Below the pieces are notes generated by a model. It was not told the origin of the DNA and searched no databases. It saw only the letters and a program-made list of their open reading frames with translations. From a virus, in IMG/VR virus record IMGVR_UViG_3300024054_000064, positions 1 to 20,196 of that record: a stretch of 20,196 nucleotides of DNA, one strand, 5' to 3'. The stretch's first letter is position 1. Each line of letters opens with the position of its first letter. The translations under genes and the position numbers were made by a program. Positions 5,993 to 19,828 of the stretch are shown piece after piece.

Positions 5993-8104
5993 TCACCTCA
6001 GTTGTGCGGCTTGAGCCCACCGCGTCATCATGGATGTGACCGTGAACGGATAGATATAGTCAGTGGAACTCGACAGACGGACCTGCATATTGACCGCGCA
6101 CCCCACCAGCTCTACTTCCGATGGAATCAACGTCTGGCCATCCCAAATAAATTCGTCCCAGTTAAGGCCGCTGCCATCCCAGTAGGCTTGACTGCCTAAG
6201 TTAGATTCATACTCGGCGGACGCAGGCTGGGGTTGCTCCGTGGAGTCCCCGTAGGCCAGCGAGTAGGCGAAGGTGAACGCGGCGTAGAAGTTCCCCTGGA
6301 TCTCCAGGGCGGCCTTGAGAAACTCTTTCAGCGTCCGCGGCTGCTTCATGGAGTTCCAGTTGAATGTGATGTACGCCTCGATGCTTGCCCCGTCGAAGGA
6401 CGATCCCTTGTCCATCTCGTAGACGTACCCGCCGGAAGCCGAGCCGGTGAGCATGACTTCGTCGCCGTTCGCTAATTGGCCGGTGTACGCGCAGTAGACC
6501 GCCGTTGGAAAGACCACCTGCATCGAGCCCAGGAGTTTCCCGTTCACCAGCGTCACGTAAAGTCCTGTGCCGTCTGTGAAAAATATGCGGTACTGGCTTT
6601 TCTGGCGACAGACGGTGGAATAGGCGACCCGCGACCGTTTATCGGAGATAAAGGTGCGAATGCCCCACGTCAGTGTGGCCTGCTCGAAATTCCCGTATTC
6701 ATGGACGGCATGAAGATCAATGAGGCCGTTGGCATCCATCGCGTATGTGCGACCGATGTTCTGTACGCTGTAATGCTGGGCGCCGACCCCCTCTTTGAAC
6801 GGCACGAGGTTCCACGTGGCCAGCGACTTGCCGTACAGAATATGCGTGTTCTCAAGGGCTGTGATTTCGAGGGCGGCGGTGTCTTGATTGCCCGGCTGAC
6901 GTTTCAGGCCGGTCACAGTGTCGCCGACCTGTAATTCGCTGGCTCCTCCGGCTGAACTCCAGTTGTAGGGCAGGCCTGGTCCTGAGTGAATAACGGAGGT
7001 TTGGAAGGCGAAGAAAAGAAAGTTTTTGTGCTCGCAAAGATGTTTCGGCGTGTCTGTGGATGTGCCCGTGGTGATCGGCACGGCCACCGTTCCGTCAAAC
7101 TCGAAGCCGCGGTTGACCCCGTCCACCCAATACAGCCGCCGGCTGCCCAGTGTCCCGGCGAAGTTGGCCCGCTCAAACTCAAACCTCCCCCCGGTCGAGA
7201 GCGTAATCGCGGTCTGGACTCCAGAGATGGTGACGGTCGCTCCAGAGCCAACGGATGTCGCTGCGCCAGCGGCGAAGTTTCCACCGGCCGGGGCATTAAT
7301 AATAAACCGCCCGGCAGCCGTGCCCGACCAGGCTCCAGATTGAAGAACTACTCGCCTGACGGTGGAAGTGACGCCTCCTTGGGTGAGGACATCGCCATCC
7401 AGGGCCGTCGCCGTGCCGCCGGCGGTAAAGCTGATCTCGTAAAAGAAGGACACCGCCGTCCATCCCGAGGTGGATGATTCATACATGACGGTCGCCGTGC
7501 CGCCTGCGTTGTCGCGGAAGGCGTAGATGTGATCGACGCCGGAGAAGACGCAATGCGCCACGCCACGAATCGGGCCGGAGCCAGGGACGGCCCCGATCAA
7601 CGCGCGGTACTCATCTGCCGCAAGATTGAGATATTGGGCGTTCTGGAGCGCGGTGAGGCTGACAGTTTGAGCCGTCGCTGTGCCAATGGTCGTCGAGCCG
7701 ACCTTGACGACCTCGGATGTCGTGAACGTGCCGGTGATCCGCGTCAGCACAACGTAGAGGCTTGACGTGGATACGGCAATAATGATGCCCGTGGCCCCAG
7801 AGGTCTGTCCCGTCAAGGTCTGGCCCGTAGAGGGAGTGTTGGTAAACGCCGTGACTTGGACGAGGGAGTACGCGGCATTCGAGGGTTTGGTCTGGCCATC
7901 GTACCGCTCGTAGCCGCTGATCCGGGCGTACCCGCCCGTCGGCGCCACCTCGAAGTTCTGGACATCGCGCAAGACGCCCGGCGGCAGGGAGAGGATGGGG
8001 GTCAGTTGATCCCACCCCCCTTTCATCTGGACGTAGTCGTACTGCGGCGACACGGCCTCTAGTGCCCGAAGCACGACGCGGTCACTGGCAGTCAGCACAT
8101 CCAT
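5993..8104 (-). CDS. Large tail protein (nozzle/stabiliser-like)
   Basis: A 703-residue, beta-rich protein with few charges. The opening helix and YDYVQMKGGWDQLTPILSLPPG, then NFEVAPTGGYARISGYERYDG, resemble the large tail-tube or nozzle proteins that cap short tails. The body has many YxxF/VYxxD-type strands (FFYEISF, RRLYWVDG, RGFEFDG, LFFAFQTSVIHSG), consistent with propeller-like blades. The order adaptor, small gene, this gene, fibre fits a short tail. ATG 8104 overlaps the upstream TAA by one base (TAATG), with GAGGG a few bases before. An earlier in-frame start at 8146 is less likely. Residues about 174-216 resemble the neighbouring 62-residue protein. The family name is inferred from position and composition. 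Confidence 0.7.
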   Translation of the reverse strand: MDVLTASDRVVLRALEAVSPQYDYVQMKGGWDQLTPILSLPPGVLRDVQNFEVAPTGGYARISGYERYDGQTKPSNAAYSLVQVTAFTNTPSTGQTLTGQTSGATGIIIAVSTSSLYVVLTRITGTFTTSEVVKVGSTTIGTATAQTVSLTALQNAQYLNLAADEYRALIGAVPGSGPIRGVAHCVFSGVDHIYAFRDNAGGTATVMYESSTSGWTAVSFFYEISFTAGGTATALDGDVLTQGGVTSTVRRVVLQSGAWSGTAAGRFIINAPAGGNFAAGAATSVGSGATVTISGVQTAITLSTGGRFEFERANFAGTLGSRRLYWVDGVNRGFEFDGTVAVPITTGTSTDTPKHLCEHKNFLFFAFQTSVIHSGPGLPYNWSSAGGASELQVGDTVTGLKRQPGNQDTAALEITALENTHILYGKSLATWNLVPFKEGVGAQHYSVQNIGRTYAMDANGLIDLHAVHEYGNFEQATLTWGIRTFISDKRSRVAYSTVCRQKSQYRIFFTDGTGLYVTLVNGKLLGSMQVVFPTAVYCAYTGQLANGDEVMLTGSASGGYVYEMDKGSSFDGASIEAYITFNWNSMKQPRTLKEFLKAALEIQGNFYAAFTFAYSLAYGDSTEQPQPASAEYESNLGSQAYWDGSGLNWDEFIWDGQTLIPSEVELVGCAVNMQVRLSSSTDYIYPFTVTSMMTRWAQAAQLR

Positions 8105-9698: not shown

Positions 9699-9722
9699 GG
9701 CGGGGTCCTTGCGAACCCCGCC
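9699..9722 (-). promoter_or_regulatory. Stem-loop without U-tract after the decoration gene
   Basis: GGCGGGGT (9722 to 9715 on the minus strand) and ACCCCGCC (9706 to 9699) make a perfect 8-bp GC-rich stem with an 8-base loop. It lies in the 68-base gap between the decoration gene and the membrane protein gene. There is no T-run after it. It may act as an mRNA stabiliser, processing site or weak pause rather than a terminator. Confidence 0.6.
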
Positions 9723-10225: not shown

Positions 10226-10267
10226 GATCGTGTCCTTTCGCTAGATCGTGTTGAGTGGCTGCTCTTC

Positions 10268-10311
10268 GTGTGAGGATGGAGCCAGCCCAGGCCGGCCCCA
10301 CCCTCTCACAC
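10268..10311 (-). promoter_or_regulatory. Long intercistronic stem-loop just after the capsid gene
   Basis: It begins two bases after the capsid TGA. The outer arms GTGTGAG (10311-10305 on the minus strand) and CTCACAC (10274-10268) are perfect. An inner stem pairs GCCGGCC with GGCTGGC, with one G-U pair in minus-strand RNA that would be an A-C mismatch on the other strand. No U-tract follows. It is probably an RNA stability, processing or attenuation element that separates capsid from decoration output. Confidence 0.65.
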
Positions 10312-12633: not shown

Positions 12634-15083
12634 TTCTGAAACGCCTGCCCGTTCGGGGCGCGTCCGGGCGGCTCCGTCGGCGGAGTCGCTACCTGTGGCG
12701 CGGCCGTTGGGGTCCGTACCCCTGCCAGGTCCTTTTGGGTCCTGAGCTTCATCACCGTCTGCGCCAGGTCCGCCTTGACTTTGTCTTGGGCGATTCCGCG
12801 CCGGTTGCTGTAGTCGAGGACGGCGAGGTTAAACCGCTCTTCCAGTTCCTTCATGCGGGCCGTATGCTCATTCCGGGTGCGCTCGGTCTCTGCCTGGACG
12901 TAGGCGGTATCCCGGTCGGTGTCGATCCTAGCCAAGGCCTCGTCGAGTTGCAGCCGGCGTTCCTCCATCTGTGCATCCAGCCGAGCCACTTGCAGGTCAA
13001 AGTCTCGATCGAGCTGCCGATTCTTGGCGTCGGCTTCGGCCCTGATTAGGGCGGCTTGGACCTGTGGCGGGGGCGGCGGCGGCGTCTCTTCGAGCTTCTT
13101 CTGCTCCTCCTCGCTGTACTGGAAGTCCTTGGGATTTAGATGCTTCGACCTGAGCACCTGTTCTATCCATCGCTTAGGATCGATCCCGAACACGGGCGCC
13201 GCCTTCGAGACCAGCTCGCTCATGCCCTGGATCGTCTGGTCCTGAATGACCCGCTCGACCAGAGCCGAGGACCCGTGGGCATTGATCTGGAAGTCGCCCT
13301 TCTCGTCGTCCGGTACGTCCGGGTCGAGCATCAGCCACTCATACAAACTCCTGATCAGCGGCTCCGTCCCGAAATCGTCATAGTTGTTGGCGATGGCTCG
13401 GAGGAGCTGGTTGGCGTTGTTGTTCTGAATTTGCGTGGCGCCGAAGGTGTTCGGGGTCGTCGGGCCGGATTGCCCTTGCGTGATGAGCGGAATACTCGTC
13501 GATTCCTCCGCCAGCCGGAAGGCGAACTCGATGATCTTGAGCATCTGGGCGGTATCGTTAGGCACGGTAAACGCGCCGAACGCTTTGGTGACGTCGGCGG
13601 TGCCCTGCTTCGCCAGCCAGATTTTTTGGGCGTAGAGCAGCCACTCTTTGTCGGCGGGGTCCACCAGCTCCCGGTTGACGACAATCTGCGTACCTGCGCC
13701 CGCATTGTTGAGCATCGCCCGCACGGCAGCCTTGATGATCTTCTGCGCCGCGATCATCTGCTCACCCACCCCGATCCCCGCCCAGTAGTCGTCTCGCTCC
13801 AACCACGGGATCGCCTGGTAGGGGAACCGGCCGGAGTCCAGCATGTTCACGGAGGCGTAGACCGCCGTGTCGTTAATGAGCGTGACCACGGCATAGACAT
13901 CCGCTTGCTCCTCCGGGATACCCACCAGCGCCTCGGGATTCATCAGCTCTAGCTCGTCGCGGGTGATCGTCCCGTGGAAATACCAGACCTCGAAGCGGTG
14001 GCGTTCATCCTGTTGGATGTCCTTGTTGGCATAGGTGTCCGTGGTTGCGTACTGCGGGCCCTGCGCCAGCACCAGGTCAATCAAGTCCTGGTGGTAGCCC
14101 TTGCGCTTCTTGAGGGCGCGGACCTGCTTGGGCGAGAACCGGTCCACCTCGAAGATGTAGTCGCCATCGTGGATGTTCTCCCCGCACGCGGGGTCCGGGT
14201 AGAGATCCCACGGCTTGATCCGCCGAACCGCCGGCTGCACCCTCTCGGAGAGCTGATACATGATGCGGTCTTTCGCCCCGTTCTGCCCCTTGAGCACAGA
14301 CACCGACTGCCCTCTGACCCGCGAGGCAAACGGGCCCTTGAGCACGCCGACTCCATACGTGGCCATGTCGCGGATGACCCGCCGGGCTTCCTTGCGGTAG
14401 CCGCACTCGACGAGCCAGTCCTCGATGCGTCGCTCCGCCTTCTTCGCCTTCTCCTCCGCCAGCCGGTACGCCTCTTCGACCAGGTCCTTGGTCGTCAGGG
14501 GCACGCGGGGCGGCCACGTCTCCGGTTGGGGCTCCGGGGCTTGGCCAGCCGCCAGTCCAGTCATTTGTCTGGTTTCCTCTGGTGTGGCGGCTCGGTCCAG
14601 GAACATGCCGGGCACACTTCGGGATTCCACGGGCGTCAGATCGTCCTGCCCTTTCGCCAAGTCCGGGATCGGGGTCGGCGAAAAACTGAACGACTTGTCA
14701 TCTGGCGAAATAATGCTCTCGCTGACCTTGGCCGCACCGGCATCGACATACCGCGAGGTCAGCGGCGGAAAGACCGTGGACCGACGGTGCGCCGACTGGC
14801 CTGGCTGATCGGCCACGACCGGCCCGTCCTTCGTCATCGGCTTGACCCATTTGTTCGCGCCAAAGGCGCCCTGATTCGCCTCGTCGCGGCCGATGTAGGC
14901 GTCCCGGCAGACCTCCCACACATCCTCAATCCCGCAGCCCCGCCGATGTGCGATCGCCTCCTTCCGCTTGTCGGCGATGGCCCGCCCAAACGCCTCCAGC
15001 CTTCGCTTGACGGACTCCTCCCGTTCGGCGACTGGCCGAAGCAGCCGCTTAACCGCGTCCGGCAATTCGAAGCTCAGGTCCAT
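12630..15083 (-). CDS. Portal protein (head-tail connector)
   Basis: An 817-residue protein, long for a portal. Starts ATG 15083 with GGGAG four bases upstream; that site overlaps the previous gene's stop. The N-terminal half has the helical and loop pattern of podovirus-type portals: RRSTVFPPLTSRYVDAGAAK, then GYRKEARRVIRDMATYGVGVLKGP, RIKPWDLYPDPACG, then RFPYQAIPWLERDDYWAGIGVGEQM and AAQKIIKAAVRAMLNNAG. From about residue 658 there is EEEQKKLEE, a six-Pro stretch, a charged coiled coil (about 675-780) and a Pro-rich tail. The coiled coil resembles the C-terminal barrel helices of large portals. The protein forms the dodecameric gate for DNA entry and exit. Confidence 0.85.
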   Translation of the reverse strand: MDLSFELPDAVKRLLRPVAEREESVKRRLEAFGRAIADKRKEAIAHRRGCGIEDVWEVCRDAYIGRDEANQGAFGANKWVKPMTKDGPVVADQPGQSAHRRSTVFPPLTSRYVDAGAAKVSESIISPDDKSFSFSPTPIPDLAKGQDDLTPVESRSVPGMFLDRAATPEETRQMTGLAAGQAPEPQPETWPPRVPLTTKDLVEEAYRLAEEKAKKAERRIEDWLVECGYRKEARRVIRDMATYGVGVLKGPFASRVRGQSVSVLKGQNGAKDRIMYQLSERVQPAVRRIKPWDLYPDPACGENIHDGDYIFEVDRFSPKQVRALKKRKGYHQDLIDLVLAQGPQYATTDTYANKDIQQDERHRFEVWYFHGTITRDELELMNPEALVGIPEEQADVYAVVTLINDTAVYASVNMLDSGRFPYQAIPWLERDDYWAGIGVGEQMIAAQKIIKAAVRAMLNNAGAGTQIVVNRELVDPADKEWLLYAQKIWLAKQGTADVTKAFGAFTVPNDTAQMLKIIEFAFRLAEESTSIPLITQGQSGPTTPNTFGATQIQNNNANQLLRAIANNYDDFGTEPLIRSLYEWLMLDPDVPDDEKGDFQINAHGSSALVERVIQDQTIQGMSELVSKAAPVFGIDPKRWIEQVLRSKHLNPKDFQYSEEEQKKLEETPPPPPPQVQAALIRAEADAKNRQLDRDFDLQVARLDAQMEERRLQLDEALARIDTDRDTAYVQAETERTRNEHTARMKELEERFNLAVLDYSNRRGIAQDKVKADLAQTVMKLRTQKDLAGVRTPTAAPQVATPPTEPPGRAPNGQAFQK

Positions 15084-15091
15084 CTGGCTCC

Positions 15092-15370
15092 CTACTGCAC
15101 CGGCTTGAAGGCCACCACCGGCTCAGAGCACCCCGCCAACTTGCCGTCGCTGCCCTTCCGGCAGGTCCACGAAATCTCGGCTGACCCGTAGGTGGCGCCG
15201 TCCTTCGAGATGATCCCGGTCACTTTCCACTCCCCGGCGCCCAAGGCCCCCACCGCCAGCTCGATCTTGTCTTGCAGCATCTCCAGCTTGTCGCGCTGAA
15301 ACGCGGCGCACCCGCTCAGTGTGACCAGGAGCACGCCGGCCAGGAACGTCTCAGCACCATCGCGTTGCAC
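15092..15370 (-). CDS. Small lipoprotein with an anomalous start
   Basis: From GTG 15370 this gives 92 residues: a hydrophobic segment (FLAGVLLVTLSGC) with lipobox LSGC and acylated Cys about residue 21. A short periplasmic domain follows, with a coil (DKLEMLQDKIELAVG), a beta part with GEWKVTGIISKDGATYGSAEISWTC, and a second Cys (KLAGC). The n-region from this GTG is acidic (QRDGAET), which is poor for a lipoprotein signal, and the AAGGAG site is 12 bases away. The same site is ideally spaced for ATG 15375 or ATG 15360 in the next frame, which begins MVLRR. One extra base near 15348 would fuse it to FLAGVLL. A frameshift is therefore suspected. Role unknown. Confidence 0.6.
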   Translation of the reverse strand: MQRDGAETFLAGVLLVTLSGCAAFQRDKLEMLQDKIELAVGALGAGEWKVTGIISKDGATYGSAEISWTCRKGSDGKLAGCSEPVVAFKPVQ

Positions 15371-15425
15371 GTCATCGCTACTCTCCTTTCCGGTGTACCT
15401 CTCGCAACCCCCCGCAGCCCTCGAA

Positions 15426-15965
15426 TCAGCATCCCGCCATGTTCTCAACCGGGCAGACCGCGCCGGGCTCTAAATCGCTCTTGCCCCGCACGCCATGTTG
15501 CTCGCTCGGCCAGCAGTCCTCGATCCCGCGCAGCTCACACAGGCTCTTGGCGTGAAACTCCAGCGGGGTCCAGGACCAGCCGTTGCGGCGAAATTCCTTA
15601 TACTTCCCGCCCTCGACCTTCACCCCCTCGTACATCTGCACCCCGAACGACTCTCCCTTGCGCCTGGGGATCCCGCCCGGAAACCAGACATCCGACGTAA
15701 AGGGGTAGGGTCCCGTCATCCATTTGCTGTGGCGGAGTTGCCCAAAGGGAAACGCCTCTTCCACCCACATCTCGACCAGGACGGGCTCGCCCGGATAGAG
15801 CCGAATGTCGTGGCGGTTCTGCTCGGTCTGATAGCCGAGCGTCGTGTCAGACTTGAGCGACGGGTCCGGGATATAGACCCGCGTGTGCGGCAAGGCGCAC
15901 CCCGCGAGGAGTGCGCCCGCCAGACACAACCCGATGAACCTGCTCCGGCTACGCCGGGTTTCCAT
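15426..15965 (-). CDS. Lipoprotein of unknown function
   Basis: A 179-residue product from ATG 15965, overlapping the beta-helix gene by 17 bases. The signal is textbook: METRRSRSRFIG, hydrophobic core, LLAGC with the acylated Cys at 23. Gly22/Ala21 fit the lipobox. The mature part is aromatic and basic, with VYIPDPSLKS, LYPGEPVLVEMWVEEAFPFG, WMTGPYPFTSDVWFPGG and several Cys near the end (SLCELRGIEDCW, VCPVENMAGC). It would sit on the outer membrane facing the periplasm. Phage lipoproteins here can block superinfection or aid lysis, but no family is recognised. In-frame ATG 16004 lies upstream but would put 13 extra residues before the signal. Confidence 0.7.
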   Translation of the reverse strand: METRRSRSRFIGLCLAGALLAGCALPHTRVYIPDPSLKSDTTLGYQTEQNRHDIRLYPGEPVLVEMWVEEAFPFGQLRHSKWMTGPYPFTSDVWFPGGIPRRKGESFGVQMYEGVKVEGGKYKEFRRNGWSWTPLEFHAKSLCELRGIEDCWPSEQHGVRGKSDLEPGAVCPVENMAGC

Positions 15966-16884
15966 GTCGCAGCCCGCCCACGTTCCAGTTGTTAACCCAC
16001 TCATCGTTGCTGCCCGCGTAGTACCCGCCGGCGTTCGAGAACGTGCCACCGACGAAGCATTGATGTACGAGGTTGCGGCCAGTCGTCCCGTTGCGGAGGT
16101 CCAGCTTGACGGTCGCGGTCTTGCTCCCGCCTTGAGCTTGGAACCGGCAGCCCACCACCTCGCTGTCGTTCAGCCGGGCAACCACATGGTTGTCGTTGTT
16201 GAAGAACCGGCAGCCGGCCAGCATCCACCGCTTCGGATCCCCGTTGACGCACCGGATCGGGGTGTCCATGTCGTGCGCGAACACATTGATCACGCACACA
16301 TTGTCGATATCGCTGGCGTCCAGGAGGTACTTGCCGGTGTTGCCCTCGATGTTCACAAGCCAGAGATCGGCCGGGTTGACGGCCCCGGAGGTACGATGCG
16401 CCTTGATGAACGCCTTGGTCTCCCCCGCCTCCGCCTTGAAGTTGGAGAATATGCACCCCTTGGCCTGGAGCGTGATGGCAATGGCATCGGAGCTGGGATT
16501 CCAGATGCACTGGGTCCCGTAGTGCTGGCCCATGCCGTAGATGTGGACGCCCACCTTGTTCAAGGTTAGGCCCGATTCCGTACACCGTCCGACAAACCCG
16601 ATCGAGTCGTAGTTCTGAGCCGCCGTGATGGCGGCGGACATCGTCAGCAGGGGAGTTTCCGGGCTCAGGCCGTCGTTGCTGGCCGACCCTTTTCCGCCGT
16701 CTGACGCGCTGCGGAAGTCCACATACCGGGGCGTCCCCGACTTTTGCTCCAGCATGGAGTCTTCCAGCCAGATCGTGTCGCGCTTGCCGGTGTGGTCCTG
16801 GACGCCACGGGGGCGGCCGGTCTTGTCGCAGAGGATCGTCAGGTAGGGAGAGACGAAGAGGGGATTCATGTCTGTCCGCGGCAT
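15949..16884 (-). CDS. Right-handed beta-helix protein, tailspike or polysaccharide-binding candidate
   Basis: A 311-residue protein. AAGGAGGTG lies four bases before ATG 16884. The N-terminal 50 residues include PYLTILCDKTGRPRG. The region after YVDFRSASDGGKGSASNDGLSPETPLLTMSAA is the typical lead into a beta-helix: a Y(V)D ... G ... N(D)G ... PF/L pattern before helix stacking. Repeated short strands follow (IGFVGRCTESGLTL, VHIYGMGQHYG, CIFSNFKAEAGE, LWLVNIEGNTG, VCVINVFAHDMD, WMLAGCRFFNNDNHVVARL, EVVGCRFQAQGG). This fold occurs in tailspikes and sugar lyases. No catalytic pair can be assigned. It is placed before the portal rather than after the tail genes, so a virion role is inferred. 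Confidence 0.7.
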   Translation of the reverse strand: MPRTDMNPLFVSPYLTILCDKTGRPRGVQDHTGKRDTIWLEDSMLEQKSGTPRYVDFRSASDGGKGSASNDGLSPETPLLTMSAAITAAQNYDSIGFVGRCTESGLTLNKVGVHIYGMGQHYGTQCIWNPSSDAIAITLQAKGCIFSNFKAEAGETKAFIKAHRTSGAVNPADLWLVNIEGNTGKYLLDASDIDNVCVINVFAHDMDTPIRCVNGDPKRWMLAGCRFFNNDNHVVARLNDSEVVGCRFQAQGGSKTATVKLDLRNGTTGRNLVHQCFVGGTFSNAGGYYAGSNDEWVNNWNVGGLRHGNPA

Positions 16885-16900
16885 TGGGCACCTCCTTGAG

Positions 16901-16949
16901 AAAAAGAAAAAGCCCTACCGAACCGGTCAATGACCGGCTCGATAGGGCT
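16901..16949 (-). terminator. Strong intrinsic terminator before the beta-helix gene
   Basis: On the minus strand AGCCCTATCGAGCCGGTCA and TGACCGGTTCGGTAGGGCT (16949-16931 and 16929-16911) pair over 19 positions with one base between, so the tip must open. A T-rich run TTTTTCTTTTT follows (16910-16900). The two non-Watson-Crick pairs are U-G and G-U in minus-strand RNA, whereas plus-strand RNA would have C-A mismatches. This supports a minus-strand terminator. It lies between the terminase/regulator block and the virion genes. The next gene's ribosome site begins within a few bases of the T-run. Confidence 0.85.
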
Positions 16950-16982
16950 CAGGTGCTTCCCGCGCTCCCTATCGGAGGGCTA
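16940..16982 (-). promoter_or_regulatory. Possible antiterminator hairpin competing with the terminator
   Basis: CGATAGGG (16974-16967) can pair with CCCTATCG (16947-16940), which is the 5' part of the terminator stem. The two folds are mutually exclusive. An upstream CCCT (16979-16976), touching the stop codon of the preceding gene, could pair with AGGG of the first arm and release the terminator. The arrangement resembles an attenuator. The 8-bp match is perfect, but no ligand or leader peptide is seen beyond the upstream gene itself. Confidence 0.4.
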
Positions 16983-17159
16983 TGTTAGATTCACCGGGAG
17001 GTGCTTCCCTGGTGGATATCCGCGACCATCGCGGATATAGACAACCTTCGAGTTTTGAAACATCAGCTCGATCGGCCCAAAAACATCCTTGGCCTTGTAG
17101 AGCGCACGGATCATCTCAACCACTTCGTCAACTGTGTGGTACGGCTCCCGCTCCCGCAT
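16980..17159 (-). CDS. Short unknown protein preceding the terminator
   Basis: A 59-residue product from ATG 17159, chosen because GGAG lies seven bases upstream. The in-frame GTG 17183 would add eight residues, but its GGAG is only one base away. The sequence is MREREPYHTVDEVVEMIRALYKA... with one amphipathic helix (VDEVVEMIRALYKAKDVFG), two short strands (IELMFQNSKVVYIRDG) and a Pro/Gly end. It overlaps the upstream gene by 32 bases in another frame. I do not recognise the family. Its TAG stop is the first element of the attenuator-like leader. Confidence 0.55.
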   Translation of the reverse strand: MREREPYHTVDEVVEMIRALYKAKDVFGPIELMFQNSKVVYIRDGRGYPPGKHLPVNLT

Positions 17160-17346
17160 CCAGTGGCTCCATACCCGTGGCACGCTCCTGGGCGGTCAGC
17201 GTTAAGTCGGTCAGCCGCCCCTGTCCGCTGTCCGCAATCTCCAACAGATACTCATGCCCCCGCTCGACCCGCAACCGAGGCACGTTGAGACCCTCCACGA
17301 CCGACAACTGCCCCGTGAAGGCAGCGGTGAACCGGCGGGTCCTCAT
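17128..17346 (-). CDS. Short beta-rich unknown protein
   Basis: A 72-residue product; ATG 17346 overlaps the upstream stop as ATGA. It reads MRTRRFTAAFTGQLSVVEGL, then VPRLRVERGHEYLLEIADSG and LTDLTLTAQERATG, with alternating hydrophobic residues typical of small beta-barrels or sheets. The C-terminus (MEPLDAGAGAVPHS) is low-complexity and is encoded where the next gene begins. An earlier in-frame ATG (17376) would ignore the coupling. No family is recognised. Confidence 0.6.
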   Translation of the reverse strand: MRTRRFTAAFTGQLSVVEGLNVPRLRVERGHEYLLEIADSGQGRLTDLTLTAQERATGMEPLDAGAGAVPHS

Positions 17347-17648
17347 GCGGGCCTCACCATCCATCGTTGAGCCCACTCACACTGCCGGCGTAATTCCCGA
17401 TGGAGAATTTGACTGACTCGTTGCTGGCTCACATCAAAGAGAGGACCGATTTCCGCGGTGGCCATGCCCACCAGGTATGCCATGACCACACACCGCGCTC
17501 GCTCTCGCGCACGAGAGTCAGCAACCCGCGCTGGTCTCGGTCCTCGGAGCCAGAGCAGCCGCGGCACAGCGTCCGTGAACCGGCGAAATGCCGCCAGGCT
17601 CACCCTGCTACCCGTGACAGGATCGAGAACATGCTCATTCCAGCTCAT
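17343..17648 (-). CDS. Helix-turn-helix DNA-binding protein, sigma region 4-like
   Basis: A 101-residue protein with ATG 17648 overlapping the upstream stop as ATGA. Residues about 46-86 read RARERARCVVMAYLVGMATAEIGPLFDVSQQRVSQILHRELRRQ. This contains a helix, a turn (FDVSQQ) and a recognition helix (RVSQILHREL), like sigma-70 region 4 or related HTH domains. The family binds DNA and often tunes transcription. Its place at the end of the terminase block, one gene-pair before a terminator, makes a late-gene regulator possible. That link is inference; no operator is identified. Confidence 0.75.
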   Translation of the reverse strand: MSWNEHVLDPVTGSRVSLAAFRRFTDAVPRLLWLRGPRPARVADSRARERARCVVMAYLVGMATAEIGPLFDVSQQRVSQILHRELRRQCEWAQRWMVRPA

Positions 17649-17911
17649 TGTGCCCCGGCCTCAAGTTTCTTCACCTTGGCCTCCAGCACCCTATTGGCTT
17701 CCAGGAGTGCCTGCACCCGCGCCGCAAAGTAGGCCGCCTCGGTTTGTGCGTTCGCCCGGTCCTTCACGAGCAGCTCCAGATAGGCCCGGCATTGGGTAAG
17801 GGGATCGACAGGAGGAGCCTCTTGGGCCTCCAAACGAGCAACTACCAGCATCCCCACCAGAAGCAGGATCGTGACCGCAAGAATGGTCTCGTTTCGTATG
17901 GACCGCTTCAT
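17645..17911 (-). CDS. Membrane-anchored coiled-coil protein (i-spanin-like topology)
   Basis: An 88-residue product from ATG 17911, three bases after the upstream TAA, with GGGAG about 11 bases upstream. A TTG one codon earlier is possible. It has a short basic N-terminus (MKRSIRNE), one hydrophobic span (about 9-25, TILAVTILLLVGMLVVARL), a Pro-rich break (EAPPVDP) and a long charged coiled coil (about 38-85, ending NRVLEAKVKKLEA). This is the topology of an Rz-type inner-membrane spanin or a signal-anchored coil. It is far from the main lysis block and lacks an overlapping lipoprotein. Lysis is therefore only one option. Confidence 0.65.
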   Translation of the reverse strand: MKRSIRNETILAVTILLLVGMLVVARLEAQEAPPVDPLTQCRAYLELLVKDRANAQTEAAYFAARVQALLEANRVLEAKVKKLEAGAQ

Positions 17912-17914
17912 CAA

Positions 17915-18202
17915 TTAAATCGCTCCCGTCGGCGCCAAGACCAGCGTACAATCCACCGTGCCGCCGATCGTGATATAGAGTCCGGTCTTGAACTGCACCG
18001 GGATGAAATACCACGTGGCGGCGACTGGCGTAAACGTATTCACCAGGACCGTCCCCGAGGCGGCGGTATTGTCCCAGAGCTTGATCGTTGGCGTCGCGGA
18101 CGCCGAGGCCACAAAAATGCCGAGAAGTGCCCCAGCCCCATAGCGGACCACCTGGCTGCTGGTGGTATTAAGTGGCTCTCCTACTTGGATGGTTGGCTCC
18201 AT
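17915..18202 (-). CDS. Small beta-sandwich-like phage protein
   Basis: A 95-residue protein with AAGGAG five bases before ATG 18202, 12 bases after the terminase stop. The core GAGALLGIFVASASATPTIKLWDN, then ASGTVLVNTFTPVAATWYFIPVQF, then TGLYITIGGTVDCTLVL is a pattern I know from short conserved phage proteins of unknown detail, likely beta-sandwich and possibly a virion decoration. No transmembrane or catalytic feature is present. The function is not established here. Confidence 0.65.
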   Translation of the reverse strand: MEPTIQVGEPLNTTSSQVVRYGAGALLGIFVASASATPTIKLWDNTAASGTVLVNTFTPVAATWYFIPVQFKTGLYITIGGTVDCTLVLAPTGAI

Positions 18203-18214
18203 AACGTCTCCTTA

Positions 18215-19516
18215 TTACCCCAGCACCCCCGTCGCCGAATCGAACGGCTCGTAGGCGGGCACGTGGACTGGCCGAGGGTCAATCTCATTCGTCATGGACT
18301 CCGCCGCCTGGGCGGTGTAGCGAAACATATCTGCCGCGTGCGAGTGCTCATCGTGTAAGGGATCTCCGATGACCCCGGCTTTGCTCACGTGGCGCCGGTA
18401 TCGCTTGACGTGCTCGATGAACGCGGCCATCGCGTCAGCATCCAGATACGTCTGCCCGAACATCATCTTCGCGGCCTTGATCCCCGCCTCGACCGTGGGC
18501 AGCTTCGGGATGGCCTGCACCGTAAACCCAGCGGCCCTGAAAATCTCCTCCGCGCTTTTCCCCGTCGGATGCTGATAGTTCTGGACAAACCCGTCCGCCG
18601 GCAGCCAGACGGCCCCCCAATTCAGCCGCATATCTTTGAGCGTGGCCGCAAACCAGTCAATCGTTTTGTCCCGCTCCTCGATATAGCCGATCCCGCGCAA
18701 GGCCCCGCCCGGGCCGCGTTGCCACAACCCGCAGACCATGTTCCAGCCCAAGTCAAACACCGCATGTACCTGTAGGCGTGGTTCGTAGGGGACCTGCGTA
18801 ATACGGCCCCGCTGAGACAGGGCGAGAATCTGTTGCGCGTAGATCGCGCCGGCAACCGCGCTGCGCGTCTGTCCTTCCCAGATATTGTTATATTCGTCCT
18901 CGTCGAGCGTGGCTTTCGCGTGTACTCGCTCACCCTCCAGCACGGCATTGAACCACGGATTATCGCGCCAGTTCATTTCCACCACCACCGCGTCCGGCGG
19001 CGGCTTCACGACGAACCGAAGATAGACCTCATCGGTGTCCAGTTCCGGGTTGAAACTGATCCAGATTTCGCTGTGTTCCTTGCGGATCGTGGGGACCAGG
19101 ATATTCCACGACTCCCCGGAGACAGTTTGGGCTTCCTCGATCCAGCAGATATCGACCCCTTCATACGACTTGATTGAGGTAACGGTGTGCTCCAGAAGGC
19201 CGGTGAAGGCAAACTCCGTCCCGTTCTTACCGAGGATCGCATGGTTGTAGACCGCATAGAAGTCAGAGAGGTCCAAGTCCTTGATCTGATCGGAGAGCAG
19301 CTTGTGGACCGATTCCTTGATTGACTCCTGCACTTCACGGGCGCACAGAATACGGAGCGGCTTCTCCGTGCCCAGCACTAGGAGTTGCCGCGCAAACGTC
19401 CAGCTCTTGGCGGAGCCACGGCCACCATGCACGACCTTGTAGCGGTGCGCGTCCCGGAGAAACCGCAATTTCTTCGGCAACTCCACGATCGTCTTGCGCT
19501 CAACCACCGCCGTCAC
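18215..19516 (-). CDS. terL: Terminase large subunit (PBSX-like)
   Basis: A 433-residue packaging motor protein. Starts GTG 19516, overlapping the small-subunit stop (GTGA). The ATPase domain shows Walker A GGRGSAKS (31-38), Walker B VDICWIEEAQ (121-130, with the catalytic Glu at 127 or 128) and a coupling motif SFNP (154-157). The C-terminal nuclease has the expected acidic residues: AVFDLGW (Asp255), LPADGF (Asp308) and HDEHSHAADMFRY (Asp396). It binds the small subunit and portal, cuts the concatemer and pumps DNA using ATP. Length and motifs match the PBSX-type family well. The gene is separated from the portal by about 3 kb of other genes, which is unusual, since the two are often adjacent. 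Confidence 0.93.
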   Translation of the reverse strand: MTAVVERKTIVELPKKLRFLRDAHRYKVVHGGRGSAKSWTFARQLLVLGTEKPLRILCAREVQESIKESVHKLLSDQIKDLDLSDFYAVYNHAILGKNGTEFAFTGLLEHTVTSIKSYEGVDICWIEEAQTVSGESWNILVPTIRKEHSEIWISFNPELDTDEVYLRFVVKPPPDAVVVEMNWRDNPWFNAVLEGERVHAKATLDEDEYNNIWEGQTRSAVAGAIYAQQILALSQRGRITQVPYEPRLQVHAVFDLGWNMVCGLWQRGPGGALRGIGYIEERDKTIDWFAATLKDMRLNWGAVWLPADGFVQNYQHPTGKSAEEIFRAAGFTVQAIPKLPTVEAGIKAAKMMFGQTYLDADAMAAFIEHVKRYRRHVSKAGVIGDPLHDEHSHAADMFRYTAQAAESMTNEIDPRPVHVPAYEPFDSATGVLG

Positions 19517-19782: not shown

Positions 19783-19800
19783 GGTCGCTTCCCGGCCCGT

Positions 19801-19828
19801 TTGACCTGTTTTTGACCTGTTAGCAGGT
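19801..19828. repeat. Two 11-bp-phased direct repeats and an inverted repeat ahead of the small terminase gene
   Basis: TTGACCTGTT occurs at 19801-19810 and 19812-19821, so the copies are 11 bases apart, about one helical turn. The second copy overlaps an inverted repeat: ACCTG (19815-19819), four bases, CAGGT (19824-19828). If the small terminase starts at 19782, the element lies in its 65-base leader; if it starts earlier, the element is coding. It could be an operator or packaging site. Confidence 0.55.

Follow-up and report, generated by a model that had tools for sequence, protein, structure and literature searches.

How are the virion genes at this locus transcribed when a strong terminator stands directly ahead of them? 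On the minus strand of the window (the whole stretch of 20,196 nucleotides analysed here), the terminase block, comprising TerS, TerL and small genes, leads into a hairpin at 16950-16910, and the hairpin leads into a 311-amino-acid gene with the portal, capsid and tail genes beyond it. A sequence-only reading had proposed that the leader in between works as a three-way switch. We assign a probability of about 0.6 to a simpler reading, in which the leader is an operon-internal intrinsic terminator that is passed by read-through. The features of the locus are collected in Table 1.

Table 1 Features of the leader and its flanking genes, in window coordinates and in the order in which they are transcribed
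Feature	Position	Strand	Remarks
Gene of the 101-aa HTH protein	17343..17648	minus	Sigma-70 region 4-like domain (Sigma70_r4)
Small ORF	16980..17183	minus	Listed at 67 aa, or 59 aa if begun at an inner ATG; its TAG stop (16982-16980) lies at the foot of H1
11-base repeat, first copy	16999..17009	minus	Within the small upstream ORF; not retained as a repeat in L004 or L018
Conserved element ACATAGCCCTCCGATAGGGAGCGC	16962..16985	minus	22/24 identical in three lineages; contains hairpin H1 (16980-16962)
CGATAGGG, complement of the terminator 5' arm (16940-16947)	16967..16974	minus	Perfect in the window and L004; 6 contiguous pairs in L018
Hairpin H2 (GGG-AAGCA-CCT)	16951..16961	minus	3-4 pairs; coincides with the second copy of the 11-base repeat
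Intrinsic terminator hairpin	16910..16950	minus	GAGCCCTATCGAGCCGGTC-ATT-GACCGGTTCGGTAGGGCTT; 19 pairs, loop ATT
Terminator U-tract TTTTTCTTTTTCTC	16898..16911	minus	TTTTTGTTTTTCTC in L004, TTTTTGTTTTCT in L018
311-aa gene	15949..16884	minus	First gene after the terminator; 'beta-helix' is the label of the sequence-only reading

The hairpin has the anatomy of an intrinsic terminator, a stable G+C-rich stem with a U-tract directly after it. Its minimum free energy (MFE) is -35.8 kcal/mol (z -8.2; 0 of 200 shuffles equally stable), and it is the strongest terminator-like site detected in the window, which bears out the strong terminator that had been placed ahead of the 'beta-helix' gene. The product of that gene matched no family above its cut-off. 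Only 25 nt lie between the end of the stem and the ATG at 16884, and because the U-tract and AAGGAGGTG fill this gap there is no space for a promoter, as had also been claimed. The flanking genes are co-directional, and the layout is thus that of an operon-internal terminator of the Tphi type. A scan of the minus strand of the window for the sigma-70 consensus returned 0 sites (sigma-70 type only). Together with the missing promoter space, this therefore implies either read-through or a promoter of a type outside the scan, and this part of the sequence-only reading is supported.

Relatives of the leader are few. Only two diverged contigs that carry it were found: L004 (82% DNA identity, 593 nt matched) and L018 (78%). 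L017, which shows no difference from the window across 600 compared nt, and L006, which is a second cut of the L018 contig, were not counted as separate lineages. Searches of viral contigs with the 311-aa protein, as a single sequence and as an alignment, returned only L004, L017 and L018; an alignment of the HTH protein returned the same three. The 311-aa protein had no relative in genome contigs and no match in phages. The HTH protein and the leader DNA likewise had no match in phages, where the DNA search at E values of up to 10 gave six weak, unrelated hits. Scanning viral contigs for the leader motif yielded 9 stretches, 3 of the window's own lineage and 6 unrelated by context, and a looser motif found 3 places in genome contigs, all unrelated. 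A covariance model run over 100 sources recovered the three input leaders, their antisense strands and two matches with E values of 2.8 and 3.4. No papers on this leader were found in a literature search with general terms.

Across the three lineages (window, L004 and L018), 36 of the 41 terminator positions are identical. Three pairs of the stem vary, through one-sided changes, and all three are still standard pairs; both diverged relatives keep the hairpin together with its U-tract. L004 (4379-4684) and L018 (6151-6411) also carry some 260-300 nt between a 207-aa gene and the next gene, most of which the window lacks and which by eye seemingly holds an extra open frame.

To place the hairpin among those of related phages, we searched 20 relatives for U-tract hairpins with energies below -8 kcal/mol, covering each from TerL or portal as far as the capsid gene. 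The sample took in 8 phage records, out of 31 that had a portal match, and 12 IMG/VR loci (L008-L016, L028, L069 and L079); the other phage records, loci with TerL only, L087 (partial portal) and L068 (TerL gene identical to that of L069) were excluded. The sense strands hold 12 such hairpins, in 9 of the 20 records, against 2.0 expected from sense-strand shuffles. The antisense strands of the same stretches hold 7, the expectation of 2.0 being that of the sense strand. L010 and L016, and L011 and L014, are 99% identical; once each pair is merged, 18 distinct stretches remain, and 8 of these are positive, carrying 11 distinct hairpins on the sense strand. The positive records comprise 8 of the 12 IMG/VR loci and 1 of the 8 annotated phages, and 11 of the 20 relatives, including 7 of the 8 annotated phage records, have none.

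Eleven of the 12 hairpins lie 7-47 nt ahead of the ATG or GTG start of a frame of at least 60 aa, and the remaining one lies 87 nt ahead. Spacing alone is modest evidence, because 50% of random positions in the surveyed records are equally near such a start. Clear cases are the hairpins ahead of the capsid gene in L008, ahead of portal in L009 and after TerL in L028; L117 has two terminator sites, each ahead of an annotated gene. The window hairpin scores -35.3 kcal/mol in the survey scan, compared with -8.6 to -23.3 kcal/mol for the others of the group. A terminator without room for a promoter after it therefore recurs among several related contigs, and it is found in T7. Between TerL and portal the window has eight ORFs in about 3.1 kb (15083-18215); these two genes directly adjoin each other in the annotated relative MW202426.1, which has neither the leader nor the eight ORFs there.

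RNA polymerase coming from the terminase block would meet the hairpin directly ahead of the virion genes. Most complexes would be released there, and those that read through would go on to transcribe the 311-aa gene and the portal, capsid and tail genes, the hairpin stepping transcript levels down between the two blocks as Tphi of T7 and the terminators of phiX174 do. The hairpin most likely limits the RNA that continues into the particle genes; termination in the host, the supply of the virion genes by read-through and the size of that share are what we infer from the sequence. We favour the operon-internal reading because of the strength of the hairpin, its conservation in L004 and L018, the 0 sigma-70 sites, the hairpins of the relatives, the layout of T7 and the read-through of phiX174. 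Weighing against it are the conserved 24-nt element upstream, for which it does not account, the 11 of 20 relatives that have no hairpin and the 7 antisense hairpins. Simple leakage into genes that need high expression looks wasteful given so strong a hairpin, and this strength leaves room for help by a factor.

The switch that had been proposed begins from a real feature. CGATAGGG (16974-16967) is perfectly complementary to CCCTATCG (16947-16940) in the 5' arm of the terminator, as the sequence-only reading stated. Such a match can be obtained by chance, because shuffles of the upstream 70 nt give a match of at least 8 bases to the 5' arm in 3.2% of 5000 cases (5.5% for either arm); with the upstream 60 nt, the figure is 3.9% of 1000 shuffles. 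Six of the 8 pairs never vary among the three sequences. The other two change in L018, one to G-U and one to a broken, uncompensated pair, so that L018 is left with 6 contiguous pairs (5 Watson-Crick and one G-U) and an outer C-G. Loss of the pairing in a homologue that keeps the terminator, which would tell against a switch, is thus seen in part: the pairing of L018 is weakened, not abolished, and L004 keeps all 8 pairs. Against shuffles, pairing counts over the three sequences do not stand out (314 of 500 and 330 of 500 reach the observed values).

An RNA attenuator built from these parts, with CGATAGGG and the terminator 5' arm forming an antiterminator and H1 sequestering CGATAGGG as an anti-antiterminator, appears improbable. 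When the nascent leader is folded in 3-nt steps, the antiterminator is indeed the MFE fold from 47 to 71 nt in the window and L004 and to 68 nt in L018, with H2 or a variant of it nested inside. In the full RNA, however, forcing the antiterminator costs 11.7 kcal/mol in the window, 11.2 in L004 and 9.5 in L018. The terminator wins once its 3' arm has been transcribed, and a switch would therefore be possible only kinetically or with a helper. Nor does the pairing have counterparts in the group. The comparison set was made up of 13 terminators in addition to those of the three leaders; two came from outside the surveyed stretches, and L016 was omitted as the same as L010. None of the 13 has an upstream complement with P < 0.15. 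The nearest, in L009, has 6 bases and P 0.156, and by eye it also lies within a small upstream hairpin. Complementarity of this kind at the terminators of the group is at best rare. For sequestering by the further CCCT, the small hairpin H1 can form, but 16990-16950 folds no better than shuffled sequence (z -0.5; 56 of 200 shuffles equally stable). Neither a ligand nor a ribosome-stall logic is evident, and the distance from the upstream stop codon to H1 differs in L018. With a chance match at 3.2%, an uncompensated weakening in L018 and a full RNA in which the terminator is preferred by 9.5-11.7 kcal/mol, support for the three-way switch is weak at best, and the small number of relatives available does not back it.

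The repeat that was proposed to record the origin of the leader fares similarly. GGGAAGCACCT is exact at 16951-16961 and at 16999-17009, as described. At the aligned positions the two copies agree in all 11 bases in the window; L004 has 6 matches out of 11 and L018 has 7. With these lower counts the relatives do not preserve a duplication as such, and an origin of the leader by local duplication is not supported. Another exact 11-base pair within 400 nt is present in the 4.2 kb scanned. We also considered an anti-Shine-Dalgarno switch, in which GCACCTCC (17004-16997) pairs with the ribosome-binding site GGAGGTGC (16895-16888). This pairing is used in the long fold; it is absent from L004 and L018, and we rejected the candidate.

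What remains is the element directly upstream of the terminator. It is more conserved than its upstream surroundings, because the stretch from ACATAGCCCTCC to TAGGGAGCGC is identical at 22 of 24 positions in the three-lineage alignment compared with 73 of 165 in the adjoining upstream coding stretch. By itself the element is not exceptional: at least 22 identities are seen in 12% of all 24-nt windows lying between TerL and portal; the best 40 windows listed for that region all lie within genes. The element has a single full-length copy in the window, with up to about a quarter of mismatches allowed. Its hairpin H1 (GC.CTCC-GATAG-GGAG.GC, 6 pairs) is invariant in the three lineages, and one pair of the adjacent H2 is G-U, A-U and G-C across them, these being three sequences only. 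In L018 the upstream ORF ends earlier, with TAA, and ACATAG is nevertheless retained; a coding role therefore cannot account for the conservation of the element in that lineage. The 24-nt element is the sole part of the locus left unexplained and could be the sole part that is new.

The gene for the HTH protein had been named, by position, as a candidate partner of the leader. Its sigma-region-4-like domain is real (Pfam Sigma70_r4, E 3.7e-6, 26.8 bits against a cut-off of 24.1), and two of three members match the model at 0.01. HTH_23 and sigma-factor models stayed below cut-off, no PHROG was assigned, and the predicted structure (mean pLDDT 57) is too poor for use. A link to the leader was not found, and the protein remains a candidate partner by position. 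Domains of this type are also a feature of some phage late-gene regulators; at the limits used, the protein matched no family of such regulators. No Q-family protein was found in the part of the ORFs scanned in the window, itself a fragment.

Passage of terminators late in infection has precedents in qut-tR' of lambda and put of HK022. Factor-dependent antitermination, in which a phage protein (perhaps the HTH protein) or the RNA itself acts through ACATAG, H1 and H2 such that the terminator is passed late, is a reading that we regard as rather unlikely. In its favour, a conserved element lies directly upstream of a very strong terminator and is retained in L018 though noncoding there, a protein with a Sigma70_r4 domain is encoded upstream, and lambda Q, according to a passage of PMC4825925, lets polymerase pass a terminator upstream of the late genes. 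Against these points, no sigma-70-like promoter was found nearby, the HTH protein falls outside the late-regulator families as above, no Rfam family reached its gathering score in the window and no boxA was seen by eye. The leader also departs from a put-type RNA, which measures about 70 nt with two long stem-loops in an extract of PMC9378689: H1 has 6 pairs and H2 3-4, both within 35 nt. A more specific proposal is that ACATAG, H1 and H2 make up a new short antitermination site. The sigma-region-4-like HTH protein would recognize this site in the DNA or in the nascent RNA, switch off an unusually strong terminator and thereby turn on the head genes after the terminase block. This proposal is highly improbable on present sequence evidence.

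The hairpin might instead mark a true end of the operon; the virion genes would then depend on a promoter of an unscanned type that lies inside the downstream genes or overlaps the conserved element. The strength of the terminator suits such an end, and GATAGGGAGC is loosely similar to T7 promoters in their start region, going by six T7 sites. The T7-like motif is, however, single in the window, a T7-type RNA polymerase (PF00940) was found in 0 of 15 records, 14 of which are virus contigs and possibly fragments, and a promoter at the element would be followed immediately by the terminator. The polymerase search detected T7 itself as its positive control. With further copies absent from the window and the polymerase in 0 of 15 records, a T7-type promoter in the conserved element is unlikely, and a true operon end as a whole seems to us a poor prospect.

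Other structured or repeated sites occur elsewhere in the window. A strong hairpin at 10267-10310 (minus strand) follows the capsid gene directly and has no U-tract; the fold of 10230-10310 reaches -35.5 kcal/mol (z -3.3), and the hairpin is retained in L005, L003 and L007 with changes on both arms. It is possibly an mRNA-stabilising or processing hairpin. An intergenic hairpin at 9699-9722 (minus strand), GGCGGGGTTC-GCAA-GGACCCCGCC, lies on the coding strand and also has no U-tract. At 19800-19821, TTTGACCTGTT forms a perfect tandem pair in the 5' portion of the listed ORF for the terminase small subunit.

We conclude that what seemed to be a special switch is mainly a recurrent layout, shared by related contigs and T7, in which terminators stand directly ahead of virion genes. 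The excess of such hairpins (12 against 2.0 expected) makes either gene dosage by read-through or a wider antitermination mechanism testable. In T7, Tphi steps transcript levels down between gene blocks. The T7 record places Tphi at 24210, 18 nt ahead of gene 11 (24228), and TE at 7588, 20 nt ahead of gene 1.4 (7608). As in the window, each of these terminators is located within a series of genes, and no promoter is annotated between it and the start codon that follows. Tphi differs in its place behind the capsid gene and in its label as a T7 transcription terminator; the window hairpin precedes the genes for portal and capsid, and there is no known phage polymerase. The capsid genes of phiX174 alternate with terminators whose read-through yields stepwise transcript levels, as set out in a section of PMC9135205. 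This alternation is what the window resembles, although phiX174 is an unrelated phage with four terminators and the window has one U-tract terminator of such strength. The late genes of lambda, in the same passage of PMC4825925, lie like those of the window behind a terminator that polymerase must pass; in the window, neither a sigma-70-type promoter nor, among the ORFs scanned, a Q-family protein was found, and the terminator stands inside a gene series, after terminase. The put site of HK022, in the extract of PMC9378689, is likewise a short leader with two stem-loops, but its stems are long, whereas H1 and H2 are very small hairpins that directly adjoin the terminator. In LUZ100, a portion of PMC10134795 describes what appears to be a strong terminator immediately behind the capsid gene, and many of the transcription units are ascribed there to read-through.
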